From contig NZ_JAGSNF010000021.1 of NCBI RefSeq assembly GCF_018139485.1, positions 62,001-126,000 on the forward strand: a stretch of DNA of 64,000 bases. Reading direction: 5' to 3'. The position numbers and the translations under genes are program-made. The notes under the pieces are model-generated. The model was not told where the DNA came from. It did no database searches and saw only the letters and a list, made by a program, of their open reading frames with translations. The first letter of the stretch is position 1, and each line of letters starts with the position of its first letter. Shown here piece by piece: positions 3,676 through 20,500 of the stretch. This DNA is from Phycicoccus avicenniae. Lineage in GTDB: Bacteria > Actinomycetota > Actinomycetes > Actinomycetales > Dermatophilaceae.

Positions 3676-5268
3676 TCAGCGTGGGTCGACGCCCGCCTTG
3701 ACGAGACCGTAGGTCACCGACTCCAGCAGCGCGTCCCAGCTCGCCTCGAGGATGTTCGCCGCGACACCGATCGTCGTCCACGACGTCGTCCCGTCCGAGG
3801 TCTCGATGAGGACCCGGGTCACCGCGTCCGTGCCGTGCGCCGCGTCGAGGATGCGGACCTTGTAGTCGATGAGCTCGAGCCCGGCGACCTCCGGGTACGT
3901 CGTCGCGATGGCGGTCCGCAGGGCGTGGTCGAGGGCGTTGACCGGGCCGTTGCCCTCGCCGGTCTCGACGTGCCGCTCCCCCGCCGCCCGGACCTTCACG
4001 GTCGCCTCGGACAGGGCGTCGGCGTCGCCACGGGCGTCGGTGATGACCCGCCAGGACTCGACCTCGAAGTACGCCGGCAGCGTGCCCTCGATCTCGCGGC
4101 GCAGGAGCAGCTCGAAGCTGGCGTCGGCGGCGTCGAAGGTGTACCCGCGCAGCTCCCGCTCCTTCACCGCCGCCAGCACCCGCTGCAGCGTGGCGGCGTC
4201 GCCCTCGTCGGACGCGTCGAGGCCGAGCCCGAGCTCGCGCGACTTCAGCTCGATGGACGCCCGGCCGGCCATGTCCGAGACGAGCATCCGCATGTCGTTG
4301 CCGACGTGCTTGGGGTCCAGGTGCTGGTAGAGGTCCGGGTCGACCTTGATCGCGCTCGCGTGCAGCCCGGCCTTGTGCGCGAAGGCGCTCGAGCCGACGT
4401 ACGGCTGCCGCGAGTACGCCGGGACGTTCGTCACCTCGGCGATGGCGTGCGCGATCCGGGTCGCGTCCTGGAGGCGGTGCGGGTCGAGCAGGTCGCGGCC
4501 CTGCTTGAGCTGGAGGTTCGCGACGACGGTCAGCAGGTCGGCGTTGCCGGTCCGCTCGCCGTAGCCGTTGATCGTTCCCTGGACGTGGCTGGCCCCCGCC
4601 TCCACCGCCGCCATCGAGTTCGCGACGGCGCACCCGGTGTCGTTGTGGCAGTGGATGCCGACCCGGGCCCCGGTGCTCGAGACGACGTCGTCGACGACGG
4701 CCCCTACCTCGCCGGGCAGCAGCCCGCCGTTCGTGTCGCAGAGGGCCACGACCTCGGCACCGGACTCGACCGCGGCCCGGACCGCCTCGAGGGCGTAGTC
4801 GCGGTCGGTGCGGTATCCGTCGAAGAAGTGCTCGGCGTCGAGGAACACCCGGCGGCCCTCGGCCCGCAGGAACGAGACGGTGTCGCGGATCATCGCCAGG
4901 TTCTCCGCCAGGGTCGTGCGCAGGGCGCGCTCGACGTGGCCGGTGTGCGACTTCGCGACGAGGGTGACGACCTGGGCCTGGCTGTCGAGCAGCGCCCGCA
5001 CGAGGGGGTCGGCGTCGGCGCGGCCCCCGGCGCGGCGGGTCGCGCCGAACGCCGCGAGCGTGGCGTTCCGCAGCCGCAGGTCCCGCGCGGCCCGGGCGAA
5101 GAACTCGGTGTCCTTCGGGTTCGCCCCCGGCCAGCCGCCCTCGATGTAGCCGACGCCCAGCTCGTCGAGGTGGGACGCGATGGCCAGCTTGTCGGCCACC
5201 GAGAGGTTGAGCCCCTCCTGCTGCGCGCCGTCGCGCAGGGTCGTGTCGTACACGTGCAGGTCGGTCAT
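3676..5268 (-). CDS. cimA: citramalate synthase
   Basis: This 530-residue enzyme of the alpha-isopropylmalate/homocitrate synthase family condenses pyruvate with acetyl-CoA to (R)-citramalate, the first step of threonine-independent isoleucine synthesis. The N-terminal catalytic barrel begins 'DTTLRDGAQQEG' (residues 8-19, with the catalytic Arg-Asp). It carries the metal-binding 'IHCHNDTG' near residue 205 and 'GYGERTGNADL' soon after; a C-terminal LeuA-type regulatory domain follows. The long TIM-barrel variant with 'EGGWPGANPKDTEFF' is the CimA rather than the LeuA form. ATG 5268 has GAGGA seven bases upstream. It is preceded by a leader peptide with three consecutive Ile codons and an attenuator, which supports an isoleucine role. 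Confidence 0.9.
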   Translation of the reverse strand: MTDLHVYDTTLRDGAQQEGLNLSVADKLAIASHLDELGVGYIEGGWPGANPKDTEFFARAARDLRLRNATLAAFGATRRAGGRADADPLVRALLDSQAQVVTLVAKSHTGHVERALRTTLAENLAMIRDTVSFLRAEGRRVFLDAEHFFDGYRTDRDYALEAVRAAVESGAEVVALCDTNGGLLPGEVGAVVDDVVSSTGARVGIHCHNDTGCAVANSMAAVEAGASHVQGTINGYGERTGNADLLTVVANLQLKQGRDLLDPHRLQDATRIAHAIAEVTNVPAYSRQPYVGSSAFAHKAGLHASAIKVDPDLYQHLDPKHVGNDMRMLVSDMAGRASIELKSRELGLGLDASDEGDAATLQRVLAAVKERELRGYTFDAADASFELLLRREIEGTLPAYFEVESWRVITDARGDADALSEATVKVRAAGERHVETGEGNGPVNALDHALRTAIATTYPEVAGLELIDYKVRILDAAHGTDAVTRVLIETSDGTTSWTTIGVAANILEASWDALLESVTYGLVKAGVDPR

Positions 5269-5451
5269 CGGTCCATCCTCGGTCGTGCCGGTCACCCGGC
5301 GTCCGGGCCCCGGCCCGTGCGGGCCGGGGCGTCGACGCGTGTCGTTCCGTTCTCCGTCATCGACCGGCGCTGCCCGGGCCGCCCGAGGGGTGGGGGGCGG
5401 CCCGCCGTCGCCGGCCGGTGTCGCCCTCCACGCGTGGTGACGACCCCGACC

Positions 5452-5482
5452 AAACGAAAAGACCCCCCGGGTACGGGAGGTC
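5452..5482 (-). terminator. Rho-independent attenuator terminator of cimA
   Basis: On the minus strand a 9-bp stem (gacctcccg / cgggggguc, one G-U pair, 4-nt loop) is followed directly by UUUUCGUUU. It lies about 185 bp upstream of the cimA start and downstream of the Ile leader peptide, the position of a classical attenuator terminator. Confidence 0.8.
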
Positions 5483-5483
5483 T

Positions 5484-5509
5484 GCGCGACGAGGAAGGTC
5501 TCGTCGCGC
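5484..5509 (-). promoter_or_regulatory. leader stem-loop (pause/competing hairpin) of the cimA attenuator
   Basis: A perfect 10-bp stem (gcgcgacgag ... ctcgtcgcgc, 6-nt loop) starts at the last base of the leader-peptide stop codon and ends one base before the terminator. A ribosome at the stop codon or at the Ile codons would occlude its 5' arm. I could not identify an unambiguous antiterminator pairing. Confidence 0.7.
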
Positions 5510-5553
5510 TAGCCGATAATGATCGCGGTGGTGGCCGCGTCACGGAACGTCAC
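5509..5553 (-). CDS. 14-residue isoleucine leader peptide of cimA
   Basis: GTG 5553 opens a 14-codon frame, MTFRDAATTAIIIG, ending in TAG at 5509-5511. Three consecutive isoleucine codons (atc att atc), including the locally rare att, lie directly before the last Gly codon and the stem-loop. The arrangement leader peptide, stem-loop, U-tailed terminator, biosynthetic gene is that of translation-coupled attenuation: ribosome stalling for want of charged Ile-tRNA should permit read-through into cimA. A GATGCT hexamer at 5560-5565 is 6 nt before GTG, so the leader may be leaderless. It is too short for standard gene callers. Confidence 0.75.
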   Translation of the reverse strand: MTFRDAATTAIIIG

Positions 5554-5633
5554 GGCGTCAGCATCGCACGCCCGGGGCCCCTCCCCGCAGGGTCCGTCCA
5601 CATCGTGACCACGACGAGACGTCGCCGCACGGC

Positions 5634-6758
5634 TCAGGCGGACCCCGCAGGCTGCACCGCGGCCTCCCACCACGCCTCGAGCGGCGGAGGCGCCGAGACG
5701 TCGACCCTGTCACCGACGCGGGGCACGCAGACCTCGACGCCCTGGGTCGCGGCGGCGACGAGCAGCCGCTCCACGGGCTCGGCCCACGGGTGCGGAGCGA
5801 GGACGAACGTGCACCAGTGGATCGGCAGGAGCAGTCCCCCGCCCATCTCACGGACCGCCGCGACGGCCTCCTCCGGGTCGAGGTGGATGTCGCGCCACGA
5901 GTCGTCGTACGCCCCGACGGCCATGAGGGCGACGTCGAAGGGGCCGTGCTCCGCCCCGATCGCGTCGTAGCCCGGGAACCAGCCCGTGTCGCCGCTGAAG
6001 AACACCCGGCCGGCCTCGCCGGCGACGACCCACGAGGCCCACAGGGTGCCGTCGCGCCGCACGCCCCGTCCCGAGAAGTGCTGGGACTCGACGGCCGTGA
6101 CGCGCACCCCGGACACCTCGTGGCCCTCGCCCCAGTCGCACTCGAGCACCCGGTGGGCGGGCACGTCCCACGCCTCGAGGTGAGCCCCGACACCGAGCGG
6201 GACGACGAAGACCGCGTCCGTGGCCGTCGCGAGCGCCTGCACGGTGTCCATGTCGAGGTGGTCGTAGTGGTCGTGCGAGACGACGACGGCGTCGACGGGC
6301 CCGATCCGCTCGAGCGGGACGGGCACGGCGTGCAACCGCCGGGGGCCCACGTGACGGCTGGGTGAGCAGCGCTCGCTCCACACCGGGTCGAGGAGCAGGC
6401 GCACCCCGTCGAGCTCGACGAGTGCGCTCGCGTGCCCGAACCACGTGACGTGCAGGCCGGTGGTCGCCGGCTCGCGCAGGGCGCTGACGACGGGGACGGC
6501 GCCGGGGGGCCGCCGGGTCTCGGCGGTCTCGCGGAAGCGGTCGACGAACTCCCGCTGGCCCGCCGGCATCGCGCGGGCGGACGCGAGCCGGTTGTGGAAG
6601 GCCCCGTCCCGGTAGTGGGGCGAGCGCTGCATCCGCGCGAGCCTCGGGCCGGTCGCCCGGGCCCCGAGGGCTGCGGGCACGCCCCGGCCGGCGACGGCGA
6701 GCGCACCGAGGGCTCCGGCGGCGCCCGCGGCGACCGCGAGCCGGTTGAACGTCGTCAC
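5634..6758 (-). CDS. metallo-beta-lactamase fold hydrolase (UlaG/NAPE-PLD-like)
   Basis: The 374-residue protein has an N-terminal hydrophobic segment (about residues 6-28, membrane anchor or signal) and then the MBL fold. 'VTWFGHASALVEL' is the typical entry of the UlaG/NAPE-PLD branch, 'SHDHYDHLD' is the HxHxDH metal site, 'FSGDTGWF' supplies the metal-bridging Asp, and 'LPIHW' the last His. This branch contains lactonases, phosphodiesterases and N-acyl-phosphatidylethanolamine-type lipases, so the substrate is open. GTG 6758 is preferred because GACAAT lies 6 nt upstream (leaderless pattern); the in-frame ATG 6800 would add 14 residues. It faces away from the gene at 6838. Confidence 0.8.
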   Translation of the reverse strand: MTTFNRLAVAAGAAGALGALAVAGRGVPAALGARATGPRLARMQRSPHYRDGAFHNRLASARAMPAGQREFVDRFRETAETRRPPGAVPVVSALREPATTGLHVTWFGHASALVELDGVRLLLDPVWSERCSPSRHVGPRRLHAVPVPLERIGPVDAVVVSHDHYDHLDMDTVQALATATDAVFVVPLGVGAHLEAWDVPAHRVLECDWGEGHEVSGVRVTAVESQHFSGRGVRRDGTLWASWVVAGEAGRVFFSGDTGWFPGYDAIGAEHGPFDVALMAVGAYDDSWRDIHLDPEEAVAAVREMGGGLLLPIHWCTFVLAPHPWAEPVERLLVAAATQGVEVCVPRVGDRVDVSAPPPLEAWWEAAVQPAGSA

Positions 6759-18475: not shown

Positions 18476-20359
18476 TCAGCGACCGTCGTGGTCGGCGTCG
18501 GTGGGCTGCGGGACCGCCTCGGACTCCTCGCGGTCCCACTGCGGGGCGGTGTCGCGGGCGACCTGGATGAGGTCGTTGCTCACCCCGGCGGGGACCATCG
18601 GCCACACCATCGCGTCCCGCTCGACGACGAAGTCGACGACGACCGGCCGGTCGTCGATGGCCATCGCCTGCCGGATCGTCTCGTCGACGTCCTCGGGCCG
18701 CTCGCAGCGCAGCCCGGCGCAGCCGTAGGCGTCGGCGAGCTTGACGAAATCGGGGACGCGGGAGCCGACGGAGGTGTGCAGGTCGGTGTTGGAGTACCGC
18801 TCGTTGTAGAAGAGGGTCTGCCACTGCCGGACCATGCCGAGGCTGCTGTTGTTGATGACGGCGACCTTGATCGGGATGTTGTTGATGACGCAGGTCGCGA
18901 GCTCCTGGTTCGTCATCTGGAAGCAGCCGTCGCCGTCGATGGCCCACACCGTGCGGTCGGGCTCGCCGACCTTGGCACCCATCGCGGCGGGGACGGAGTA
19001 GCCCATCGTCCCGAGCCCGCCGGAGTTGAGCCAGGAGTTGGGGCGCTCGTACTGCACGAACTGGGCGGCCCACATCTGGTGCTGGCCGACCCCGGCGACG
19101 TAGACCGCCTCGGGCCCGGCGATCGCCCCGAGCCGCTCGATGACGTACTGCGGGGCGAGCGCGCCCTCCTCGGCCGGTTCGGTGTAGCCGACCGGGAAGG
19201 TGCGCTTCCAGCCGGCGACGCGGGAGCGCCACGCCGAGTAGTCGCCGGCGGTGCCGGCGTCCATGTCGTTCTCGACGGCCTCGGCGAGGTCGGTGAGGAC
19301 GGCCTTGCAGTCCCCGACGATCGGGACGTCGGCCTTGCGGTTCTTGCTGATCTCCGCCGGGTCGATGTCGGCGTGGATCACCTTGGCGTCCGGCGCGAAC
19401 GTCGACAGCTGGCCGGTGACGCGGTCGTCGAACCGGGCGCCGAGCGCGATGAGCAGGTCGGACTTCTGGAGGCCGGTGACCGCCGAGACCGACCCGTGCA
19501 TGCCGGGCATGCCGAGGTGCAGCTCGTGGCTGTCCGGCAGGGCGCCGCGGGCCATGAGCGTCGTGACGACCGGGATCTGCGACAGCTCGACGAAGCGGCG
19601 CAGCTCCTCGGACGCCTCGGCGCGGATCACGCCGCCGCCGACGTAGAGGACGGGCCGCTTCGCGGCCGCGATGAGCCGGGCGGCCTCGCGGATCTGCTTG
19701 CCGTGCGGCCGGGTCACCGGGTGGTAGCCGGGGAGGGAGATCCGCGGCGGCCAGGCGAAGGAGGTCCGGGCCTGGAGGGCGTCCTTGGAGATGTCGACGA
19801 GGACCGGGCCGGGCCGGCCGGTGCTCGCGATGTGGAAGGCCTCGGCGATGACCCGCGGGATCTCGGCGGGGTCGGTGACGAGGTAGTTGTGCTTCGTGAC
19901 CGGCATCGTGATGCCCCGGATGTCCGCCTCCTGGAAGGCGTCGGTGCCGATCGCGGACGAGGCGACCTGCCCGGTGATGGCCACGACGGGGACGGAGTCC
20001 ATGTAGGCGTCGGCCAGGGCGGTGACGAGGTTCGTCGCCCCGGGGCCGGAGGTCGCCATGCACACCCCGACCCGACCGGTGGCCGACGCGTAGCCCTCGG
20101 CGGCGTGCCCGGCGCCCTGCTCGTGCCGGACGAGGACGTGCCGGACCTTGACCGAGTCGAGCAGCGGGTCGTACGCCGGCAGGATCGCGCCGCCGGGGAT
20201 GCCGAAGACGGTGTCGACCTCCATCGCCTCGAGCGAGAGGACGAGGCTCTGCGCTCCGGTGACCTCGACGGGGGTGCGGGCGCGCGCCTGCTGCGCGACC
20301 TGCGCCGGGGTGGGGGCCGGGTGCAGGGCTGCCGGGGTCACCGGTCGGGTGTCGCTCAC
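18476..20359 (-). CDS. ilvB: acetolactate synthase large (catalytic) subunit
   Basis: This 627-residue TPP- and FAD-dependent enzyme makes 2-acetolactate from two pyruvates or 2-aceto-2-hydroxybutyrate from pyruvate and 2-ketobutyrate. The TPP-activating Glu is in '[14 protein letters not shown]' near residue 90. The TPP/Mg motif '[15 protein letters not shown]' near 500 ends in 'INNSSLGMV'. An N-terminal extension of about 45 residues (Ala/Pro-rich) precedes the catalytic domain, as in other actinobacteria. GTG 20359 is chosen from the end of the attenuator region and the local AGAGAGA. It is the first structural gene behind an 11-codon leader peptide and terminator. Confidence 0.95.
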
Positions 20360-20407: not shown

Positions 20408-20445
20408 AAAAAAACCCTCCCGTCCCGCGCGGGGACGTCGGAGGG
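20408..20445 (-). terminator. attenuator terminator of ilvBNC
   Basis: In minus-strand RNA, ccctcc-(ga)-cgtccc pairs with gggacg-ggaggg (12 bp, 2-nt bulge, 5-nt loop) and is followed by seven U residues. It lies about 50 bp upstream of ilvB and right behind the leader peptide and its stem-loop. Confidence 0.9.
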
Positions 20446-20446
20446 A

Positions 20447-20474
20447 GCGCGCCTGGTGGTGCGGTCAGGCGCGC
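20447..20474 (-). promoter_or_regulatory. leader stem-loop of the ilvBNC attenuator
   Basis: gcgcgcc and ggcgcgc (7 bp) enclose a 14-nt loop. The leader-peptide stop codon begins within the 5' arm, so a ribosome terminating there would disrupt the stem. The hairpin ends one base before the terminator. Confidence 0.75.
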
Positions 20475-20500
20475 TGTCGAAGTACGAGGACTCGAGCCAC
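20465..20500 (-). CDS. 11-residue leader peptide of ilvBNC
   Basis: GTG 20500 opens MARVLVLRQRA followed by TGA. Positions 4-7 are Val-Leu-Val-Leu (gtc ctc gta ctt), with two codons (gta, ctt) rare in this genome. The peptide is followed by a stem-loop and a U-tailed terminator before ilvB, the arrangement of branched-chain attenuators known from actinobacterial ilvB operons. The GTG lies 6 nt from the -10 box, so transcription and translation probably start at the same base. It is below usual gene-caller length. Confidence 0.85.
   Translation of the reverse strand: MARVLVLRQRA

Follow-up and report, generated by a model that had tools for sequence, protein, structure and literature searches.

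cimA, the citramalate synthase gene of the window (by which is meant the whole 64,000-nucleotide stretch of DNA analysed here), lies on the minus strand and is preceded by a short open reading frame (ORF) with isoleucine codons near its end, by a stem that begins at the stop codon of this ORF, and by a terminator hairpin. In the direction of transcription the parts are:

5560..5565, minus strand: -10-like box GATGCT (pattern NANNNT), 6 nt 5' of the leader GTG, read from the sequence
5509..5553, minus strand: leader ORF, VTFRDAATTAIIIG and stop, 14 codons, from GTG at 5553 to TAG at 5509
5518..5520, minus strand: ATT codon, the proposed sensing codon, 11 nt 5' of the first base of stem arm A
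5484..5509, minus strand: stem A:B, the proposed "ON"-state hairpin, perfect 10 bp, GCGCGACGAG/CTCGTCGCGC
5460..5483, minus strand: terminator hairpin C:D, 10 pairs, 7 of them G-C, zero spacer to A:B
5451..5459, minus strand: U-rich tail of C:D, TTTCGTTTG, read from the sequence
3676..5268, minus strand: cimA, citramalate synthase, the proposed regulated gene, ATG at 5268, TIGR00977 match

The preliminary description of this DNA, which named no strand, had listed a 14-codon ORF ending Ala-Ile-Ile-Ile-Gly-stop, a perfect 10-bp stem beginning at the stop codon, a terminator hairpin with a tail after that stem and a citramalate synthase gene downstream; it is right on all of these parts, the ORF being on the minus strand. 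The isoleucine codons of the leader are ATC ATT ATC, the first base of A:B is the G of the leader's UAG stop, and 191 nt separate C:D from the cimA start. The cimA product, whose reaction opens one route to isoleucine, scores 644.8 bits against the TIGR00977 citramalate synthase model (cut-off 450) and is the sole full-length match to it in its own genome, the two others being partial and weak. The segment 5446-5560 is predicted to fold at -57.4 kcal/mol (z -4.53), with none of 200 shuffles as stable, and a 16-base core, ATYATYNNNTAGCGCG, has its single occurrence in the window here (expectation 0.00). At gathering score no Rfam family matches anywhere in the window; with the limit relaxed to E 5, the element draws a single Rfam match, ctRNA_p42d (E 0.53, 16.6 bits vs 50). 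A consensus scan of 5200-5800 found no full sigma-70 promoter, -35 included, so that what backs the leader start is the -10-like box. A second copy of the element in the same genome was looked for and rejected: there are six exact matches to GCGCNGACCTCYCG, of which one is the cimA element and five are, by eye, no elements (the window's ilvB element, described below, is not among the six).

Two other features of this region may be mentioned. A palindrome-like sequence, CACGATGTGGAC, at 5595-5608 (minus strand), ~42-55 nt 5' of the leader start, is kept in the genus and in some relatives, and is a possible candidate for a regulator site. The palindrome CCACNNNGTGG was rejected as such a site: its pattern is present in only 20 of 168 loci (7 from the genus set, 9 family, 3 genome_contigs and 1 class; these sets are introduced below), and the window copy departs from it by one base. 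Between the terminator and cimA, at 5307-5330 (minus strand), there is a second GC-rich hairpin, GCCCCGGCCC/GGGCCGGGGC, that looks alike, by eye, in 12 same-genus loci.

Conservation and covariation at cimA

The survey of relatives took in 272 cimA upstream regions: 12 from the genus (own included), 100 from the family (taken from 111 genomes of the family, genus excluded, that had a match), 80 from the class (hand-picked, one or more per genus, from 158 genomes with cimA), and 80 of the genome_contigs set. Some genomes are in twice (L015/L006 and L016/L126 are examples), identical elements having been removed only for the 168-element analyses, and relatives are not independent in any of the counts that follow (the weighted effective number is 53.6 of 168). 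A parser required two abutting hairpins (0-4 nt apart), a T tract, and a short ORF that contains an isoleucine codon. The hairpin pair with its Ile ORF was parsed in 188 of the 272 real regions, in none of 272 shuffled regions and in one of 272 reverse strands: the combination occurs at cimA beyond chance. By set, 12/12 genus, 95/100 family, 48/80 class and 33/80 genome_contigs regions passed, and all 12 same-genus loci, own included, have an isoleucine-rich leader. A further 16 class loci have the element by eye, seven of them in family f20 and nine elsewhere, which with the 48 parsed loci makes 64 of the 80. In f20, which is probably Streptomyces, all seven sampled cimA loci have it (by eye), with leaders such as MIIGSRRAGPQ-stop.

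cimA lacks the element at 5 of the 100 family loci (four of these are one genus) and at 16 of the 80 class loci (12 of these misses were read whole, and L242, L248, L255 and L276 as tails only); in the genome_contigs set, judged by parser only, 47 of 80 failed, many of them from distant lineages. Genera with the element include Pedococcus, Cellulomonas, Demequina, Nocardioides, Nonomuraea, Amycolatopsis, Pseudonocardia and Kutzneria, of which Nonomuraea, Amycolatopsis, Pseudonocardia and Nocardioides stand outside Micrococcales. Two Acidimicrobiia loci of the genome_contigs set also passed, one (L065) with four isoleucine codons and the other (L073) with two, separated. The preliminary description had proposed a check on whether relatives conserve the isoleucine codons, the stem and the terminator: all three are kept, the stems covary, and conservation extends beyond Micrococcales. 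The bare 16-base core is not specific across 196 class genomes, with 38 matches vs 35 for a reversed control, 18 of the 38 lying just 5' of cimA (among the cimA places listed).

The hairpins abut: in the 197 parsed loci the spacer from A:B to C:D is 0 in 167, 1 in 19 and 2-4 in 11 (the parser allowed 0-4). (A technical note on samples: geometry and folding were examined in 188 of these 197 loci, nine being without a parsed Ile ORF; duplex tests used the first 180; and loop exchange, codons, covariation and -10 boxes used the 168 non-redundant loci of the 188.)

As judged from the alignments, both stems, A:B and C:D, covary. The top pairs by background-corrected mutual information across 168 elements are A:B and C:D pairs; the others among the top 30 fall inside the leader codons or join neighbouring A and B positions. 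The structure-anchored alignment behind these values is better than alignment A1 (below), but comes from a parser that selects paired stems, so that its pairing percentages are high by construction and only changes of pair type count as evidence. In alignment A1 (33 of 39 diverse elements, leaving out L065, L073, L246, L266, L270 and L278), 63 cells are changed on both sides, where shuffles give 24.4 (none of 500 as high); the covariation score reaches 0.330, where shuffles give 0.193 (0/500) and slid controls at most 0.180. Two other counts give no clear excess in A1: pairs changed on both sides (10 vs 9.2 in shuffles, 212/500) and further pair types (29 vs 26.0, 33/500). MAFFT misplaces C:D in several rows of A1, and helix 2 is consequently only 73.5% paired there.

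Leader codons and hairpin geometry

How would such a leader be translated? A NANNNT box lies 6-7 nt 5' of any in-frame ATG or GTG in 154 of 168 leaders vs 74 of 1586 single control start codons, a comparison that is not like for like in that one leader may offer several starts; a strict TANNNT box is present in 18 of the 168. This spacing suggests that the leader is probably translated from a leaderless start.

The choice of isoleucine codon is skewed. ATT accounts for 185 of the 382 isoleucine codons in the 168 non-redundant leaders, 160 of which have at least one. Compared like for like, 57 of the 142 isoleucine codons in 57 leaders are ATT, as against 32 of the 980 isoleucine codons within cimA itself at 56 of these loci (Fisher p 6e-34, uncorrected for phylogeny). 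Position is equally constrained: in 140 of 188 loci the penultimate isoleucine codon stands precisely 11 nt ahead of A, and of the 124 isoleucine codons found 11 nt 5' of stem A in the 168 non-redundant elements, 106 are ATT. Several same-genus leaders depart from this, with ATC ATC ATC. In leucine and valine versions of the leader, CTT, GTA and GTT are found near the hairpin by inspection. A rare wobble codon kept at one distance would suit a sensor of stalling; the preference for ATT could also reflect a demand for A/U-rich, unpaired RNA. The stop codon comes in two layouts: in 153 of 188 loci it begins 1-3 nt short of arm A; in 31 it begins 10-13 nt within the arm, the ORF continuing through A as in LLIIGRRAG-stop; and in 4 it lies elsewhere. 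Given the footprint size of a ribosome, one at the stop codon would sit on A in both layouts.

What pairing might undo the terminator? The preliminary description had been unable to see an antiterminator by eye. None was found here either, and the difficulty appears not to be merely one of seeing it, as masked-ribosome folding, complementarity and covariation all fail to bring one out. When the RNA of 188 loci is folded whole, cut at a ribosome on the penultimate isoleucine codon, or cut at a ribosome on the stop codon, the mean pairing probability of C:D stays at ~0.98 (three loci are below 0.5 in each state). In the first 180 loci, complementarity of A:C, A:D, B:C and B:D is below that of shuffled controls. 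The upstream codons have no supported pairing with B, C or D; their duplex with B is slightly above shuffled (-3.65 vs -2.87 kcal/mol, better in 70%), a weak effect. An antiterminator acting by alternative pairing is thus unsupported by ribosome-cut folding, by cross-complementarity, by the upstream codons and by pairing of the A:B loop with D (considered below), and the antiterminator pairing excluding C:D that is the hallmark of the classical four-segment (trp-type) attenuator was not found in these predicted folds. With C:D at ~0.98 in every state and no rival pairing, thermodynamics alone predicts termination every time. What the alignments point to as conserved, in place of an antiterminator pairing, is the abutment of the two hairpins.

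A proposed attenuation mechanism and its rivals

We think it likely that the element attenuates cimA transcription in response to isoleucine, with the ribosome on the leader as the mediator, and that the preliminary description was very probably right on the regulatory role. The proposed sequence of events runs as follows. With ample charged Ile-tRNA the ribosome would reach the stop codon and cover arm A; A:B would be blocked, C:D would form, and transcription would end before cimA. With charged Ile-tRNA in short supply the ribosome would stall with the rare ATT in its A site; its leading edge, placed from the ribosome's footprint size, would come approximately to the base of A:B, 11 nt away, so that A:B could fold ahead of it. 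A:B is taken as the "ON" state because an ATT-stalled ribosome would leave it free while a terminating ribosome would cover it. The weakest step is the next one: A:B, flush against C, would disable C:D by its abutment, either sterically or by way of RNA polymerase pausing, and allow read-through into cimA. The scheme suggests that actinobacteria would raise their output of citramalate synthase when isoleucine is short.

Must an antiterminator nonetheless be hidden here? A classical attenuator whose antiterminator has been overlooked (because it is short, pseudoknotted or made of invariant bases), formed for example by the A:B loop and the right arm of the terminator, is unlikely in our judgment. 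It has a precedent in Corynebacterium ulcerans ilvB-II, which the consulted part of PMC10272879 describes in this way, and the loop does pair with D better than shuffled loops do (-9.5 vs -7.5 kcal/mol, better in 72%). Exchanging loops between species removes most of that advantage: with D, loops taken from other species do nearly as well (-8.0 vs -8.3 kcal/mol, own better in 53%, where the C:D control gives 99%). Moreover, many of the loops have just 3-8 nt, and the leading covariation is confined to A:B, C:D or the leader codons. Invariant bases cannot covary, which is why this reading keeps its standing as a rival. An improbable reading has the leader act on translation, on mRNA stability or on Rho-dependent termination instead of on intrinsic termination; Rho-dependence has been considered for actinobacterial cysteine leaders that lack a terminator (PMC1262725, in part), but C:D with its U tract is conserved and covaries, and 191 nt lie between it and the cimA start.

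The hairpins might also be no more than a plain intergenic terminator of the upstream gene accompanied by a stop-codon hairpin, with the isoleucine ORF incidental: a same-strand ORF does end near 5634, and C:D is a good terminator. This we hold to be very improbable in view of the conserved isoleucine codons with their rare-codon preference and fixed distance to A, the promoter-like box that follows the upstream gene and precedes the hairpins, and the related elements that precede cimA, ilvB, ilvA, leuS and leuA. Scarcely credible is a leader that serves as a small protein with its own function in trans, as reported for a trp leader peptide of Sinorhizobium (PMC7298713, in the part consulted): only the isoleucine end is conserved, the N-terminal parts being variable and the choice of start uncertain, and the shortest leaders have 8 residues (MHTAIIIP), the longest 16 (such as VLSFAMIIGSRRAGPQ).

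How does the proposed cimA attenuator compare with known ones? The trp, his and ilv attenuators of E. coli combine leader codons for the end product, a stop near the first hairpin and an intrinsic terminator. The cimA element has the same three things, but no alternative 2:3 pairing was found and its start is probably leaderless.

The closer likeness is to actinobacterial ilvB and leuS (the papers are cited here for the parts consulted). The leader ORF of C. glutamicum ilvBNC has branched-chain codons and starts one nucleotide from the 5' end (PMC11857589); Corynebacterium ilvB has a hairpin immediately ahead of its intrinsic terminator (PMC11857589, PMC10272879), its antiterminator overlapping the terminator by a GCC trinucleotide in C. 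glutamicum (PMC11857589), while in the C. ulcerans ilvB-II motif the P1 loop pairs with a terminator arm (PMC10272879). The cimA element likewise has a leader ORF and a hairpin directly before the terminator, but its hairpins abut without shared bases and it would sense mainly isoleucine, often with leucine or valine alongside; with no rival pairing found, these published models do not transfer base for base. In Streptomyces the leaders of ilvB and leuS (Seliverstov 2005; the reannotation of S. lividans TK24) likewise have a short branched-chain ORF, hairpins and a U tract in the parts of those sources consulted. The element at cimA has the traits of the ilvB/leuS type (a run of end-product codons, an intrinsic terminator before the gene, an upstream hairpin abutting the terminator) and is best read as an extension of the ilvB-type design of actinobacteria to a new gene. 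The LEU element of actinobacterial leuA, also a leader peptide before a related synthase gene, is described as a pseudoknot that takes in the Shine-Dalgarno box and lacks a terminator (PMC1262725); the cimA element, unlike it, has C:D. Several observations count against our reading: termination predicted in every state, the cimA loci that lack the element, the incomplete promoter consensus, and the S. coelicolor ilvB leader, in which mutations of candidate codons were without effect on regulation (cited in PMC1262725).

The consulted part of PMC1262725 covers trp, cys, ilvB, leuS, leuA and ileS, reports no conserved structures for other pathways, and does not name cimA; cimA is absent from the eight S. 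lividans leaders in the part of PMC8079986 consulted, and the word citramalate is absent from the consulted parts of PMC2965389 and PMC4833913. In the titles and abstract openings searched, no leader peptide of an actinobacterial cimA or ilvA was named; the search took in little of the subscription literature, and an earlier description is possible. What the present comparison would add is the class-wide spread, the rare-codon sensor, the probable leaderless start, the design common to other branched-chain genes and evidence against a textbook antiterminator.

If the scheme is true, isoleucine synthesis by way of citramalate is under an end-product RNA switch in a large part of the class Actinomycetes, Streptomyces probably among them, and the short ORFs before cimA, likely missed by gene callers, are accounted for. 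The elements would then offer a natural series for testing attenuation without an evident antiterminator, ATT would be a codon-level readout of Ile-tRNA supply, and the cimA element would be a point of intervention for making isoleucine and citramalate in actinobacterial hosts.

Related elements at other genes

The preliminary description had read the locus as an isoleucine attenuator of cimA. That reading is supported by conservation and covariation, but cimA appears not to be the sole target, since ilvB, ilvA, leuS and leuA are preceded by such elements too. A covariance model, R1, was built from the 33 cimA elements of alignment A1 (with L065 and L073 left out there, it includes no Acidimicrobiia element) and has matches in 143 of 196 class genomes. 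Among the 150 matches listed, 96 lie within 420 nt 5' of cimA (these 96 genomes are out of 150 class genomes with a cimA place listed, and at least 17 of them gave model sequences), 42 have another position in a genome whose cimA is listed, and 12 come from genomes with no cimA listed. One match lies in the window itself:

20465..20500, minus strand: ilvB leader, VARVLVLRQRA and stop, with valine and leucine codons, by eye
20408..20488, minus strand: ilvB attenuator, abutting hairpins of the same kind; R1 31.8 bits, E 3.9e-8, not in the training set
18572-20260: ilvB, TIGR00118 match, 760.5 bits

The leader ORF follows a promoter-like TTGACA-17-GACAGT (by eye).

Forty other or second R1 matches, hand-picked from the 150 listed, were assigned to genes by tblastn to six reference proteins, five of which were scanned with NCBIfam (the ilvA reference, at 294.6 bits, falls short of the 378.75 that its family requires): 19 lie before ilvB, 9 before ilvA, 5 before leuS, 3 before cimA, 2 before leuA and 2 before a small ACT-domain-like protein. 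The parser finds the hairpin pair, 0-6 nt apart, in 32 of the 40; the loci in which it finds no pair are L303, L314, L325-L329 and L331. The five leuS elements have CTC CTT leader codons and hairpins 0-1 nt apart. In family f14, leuA is preceded by CTG CTC CTT codons and abutting hairpins (L298, L308), and none of the three f14 genomes with R1 matches had a cimA match at E 1e-100.

The nine ilvA cases (L304, L312-L319) are all from one family, f19, and have leaders such as VPQHLMVIT-stop before a threonine ammonia-lyase-like gene. Thirteen f19 genomes have an R1 match; all six cimA regions examined in this family are without an element, and two of these six genomes, G198 and G280, have the R1 match at ilvA. 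With no element at six cimA loci and an element at ilvA, the isoleucine switch appears, from these sequences, to have moved in f19 from the citramalate to the threonine route. One can think of all these elements as one actinobacteria-wide class of branched-chain attenuators, in which a ribosome-gated hairpin, instead of competing with the terminator for bases, switches it off by flush contact (sterically or through pausing), rare wobble codons at a fixed distance (ATT, and by inspection CTT, GTA and GTT) serve as the sensor, and the isoleucine sensor is on cimA in most sampled lineages and on ilvA in one family; this generalisation is tentative, and we would give it somewhat less than an even chance.

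The two elements before the small protein (L293 and L294, two genomes of one genus) are of the isoleucine type, with an L293 leader that reads MFALVIIM-stop; the ACT-domain match of the protein has 19.7 bits, below the Pfam cut-off of 27.
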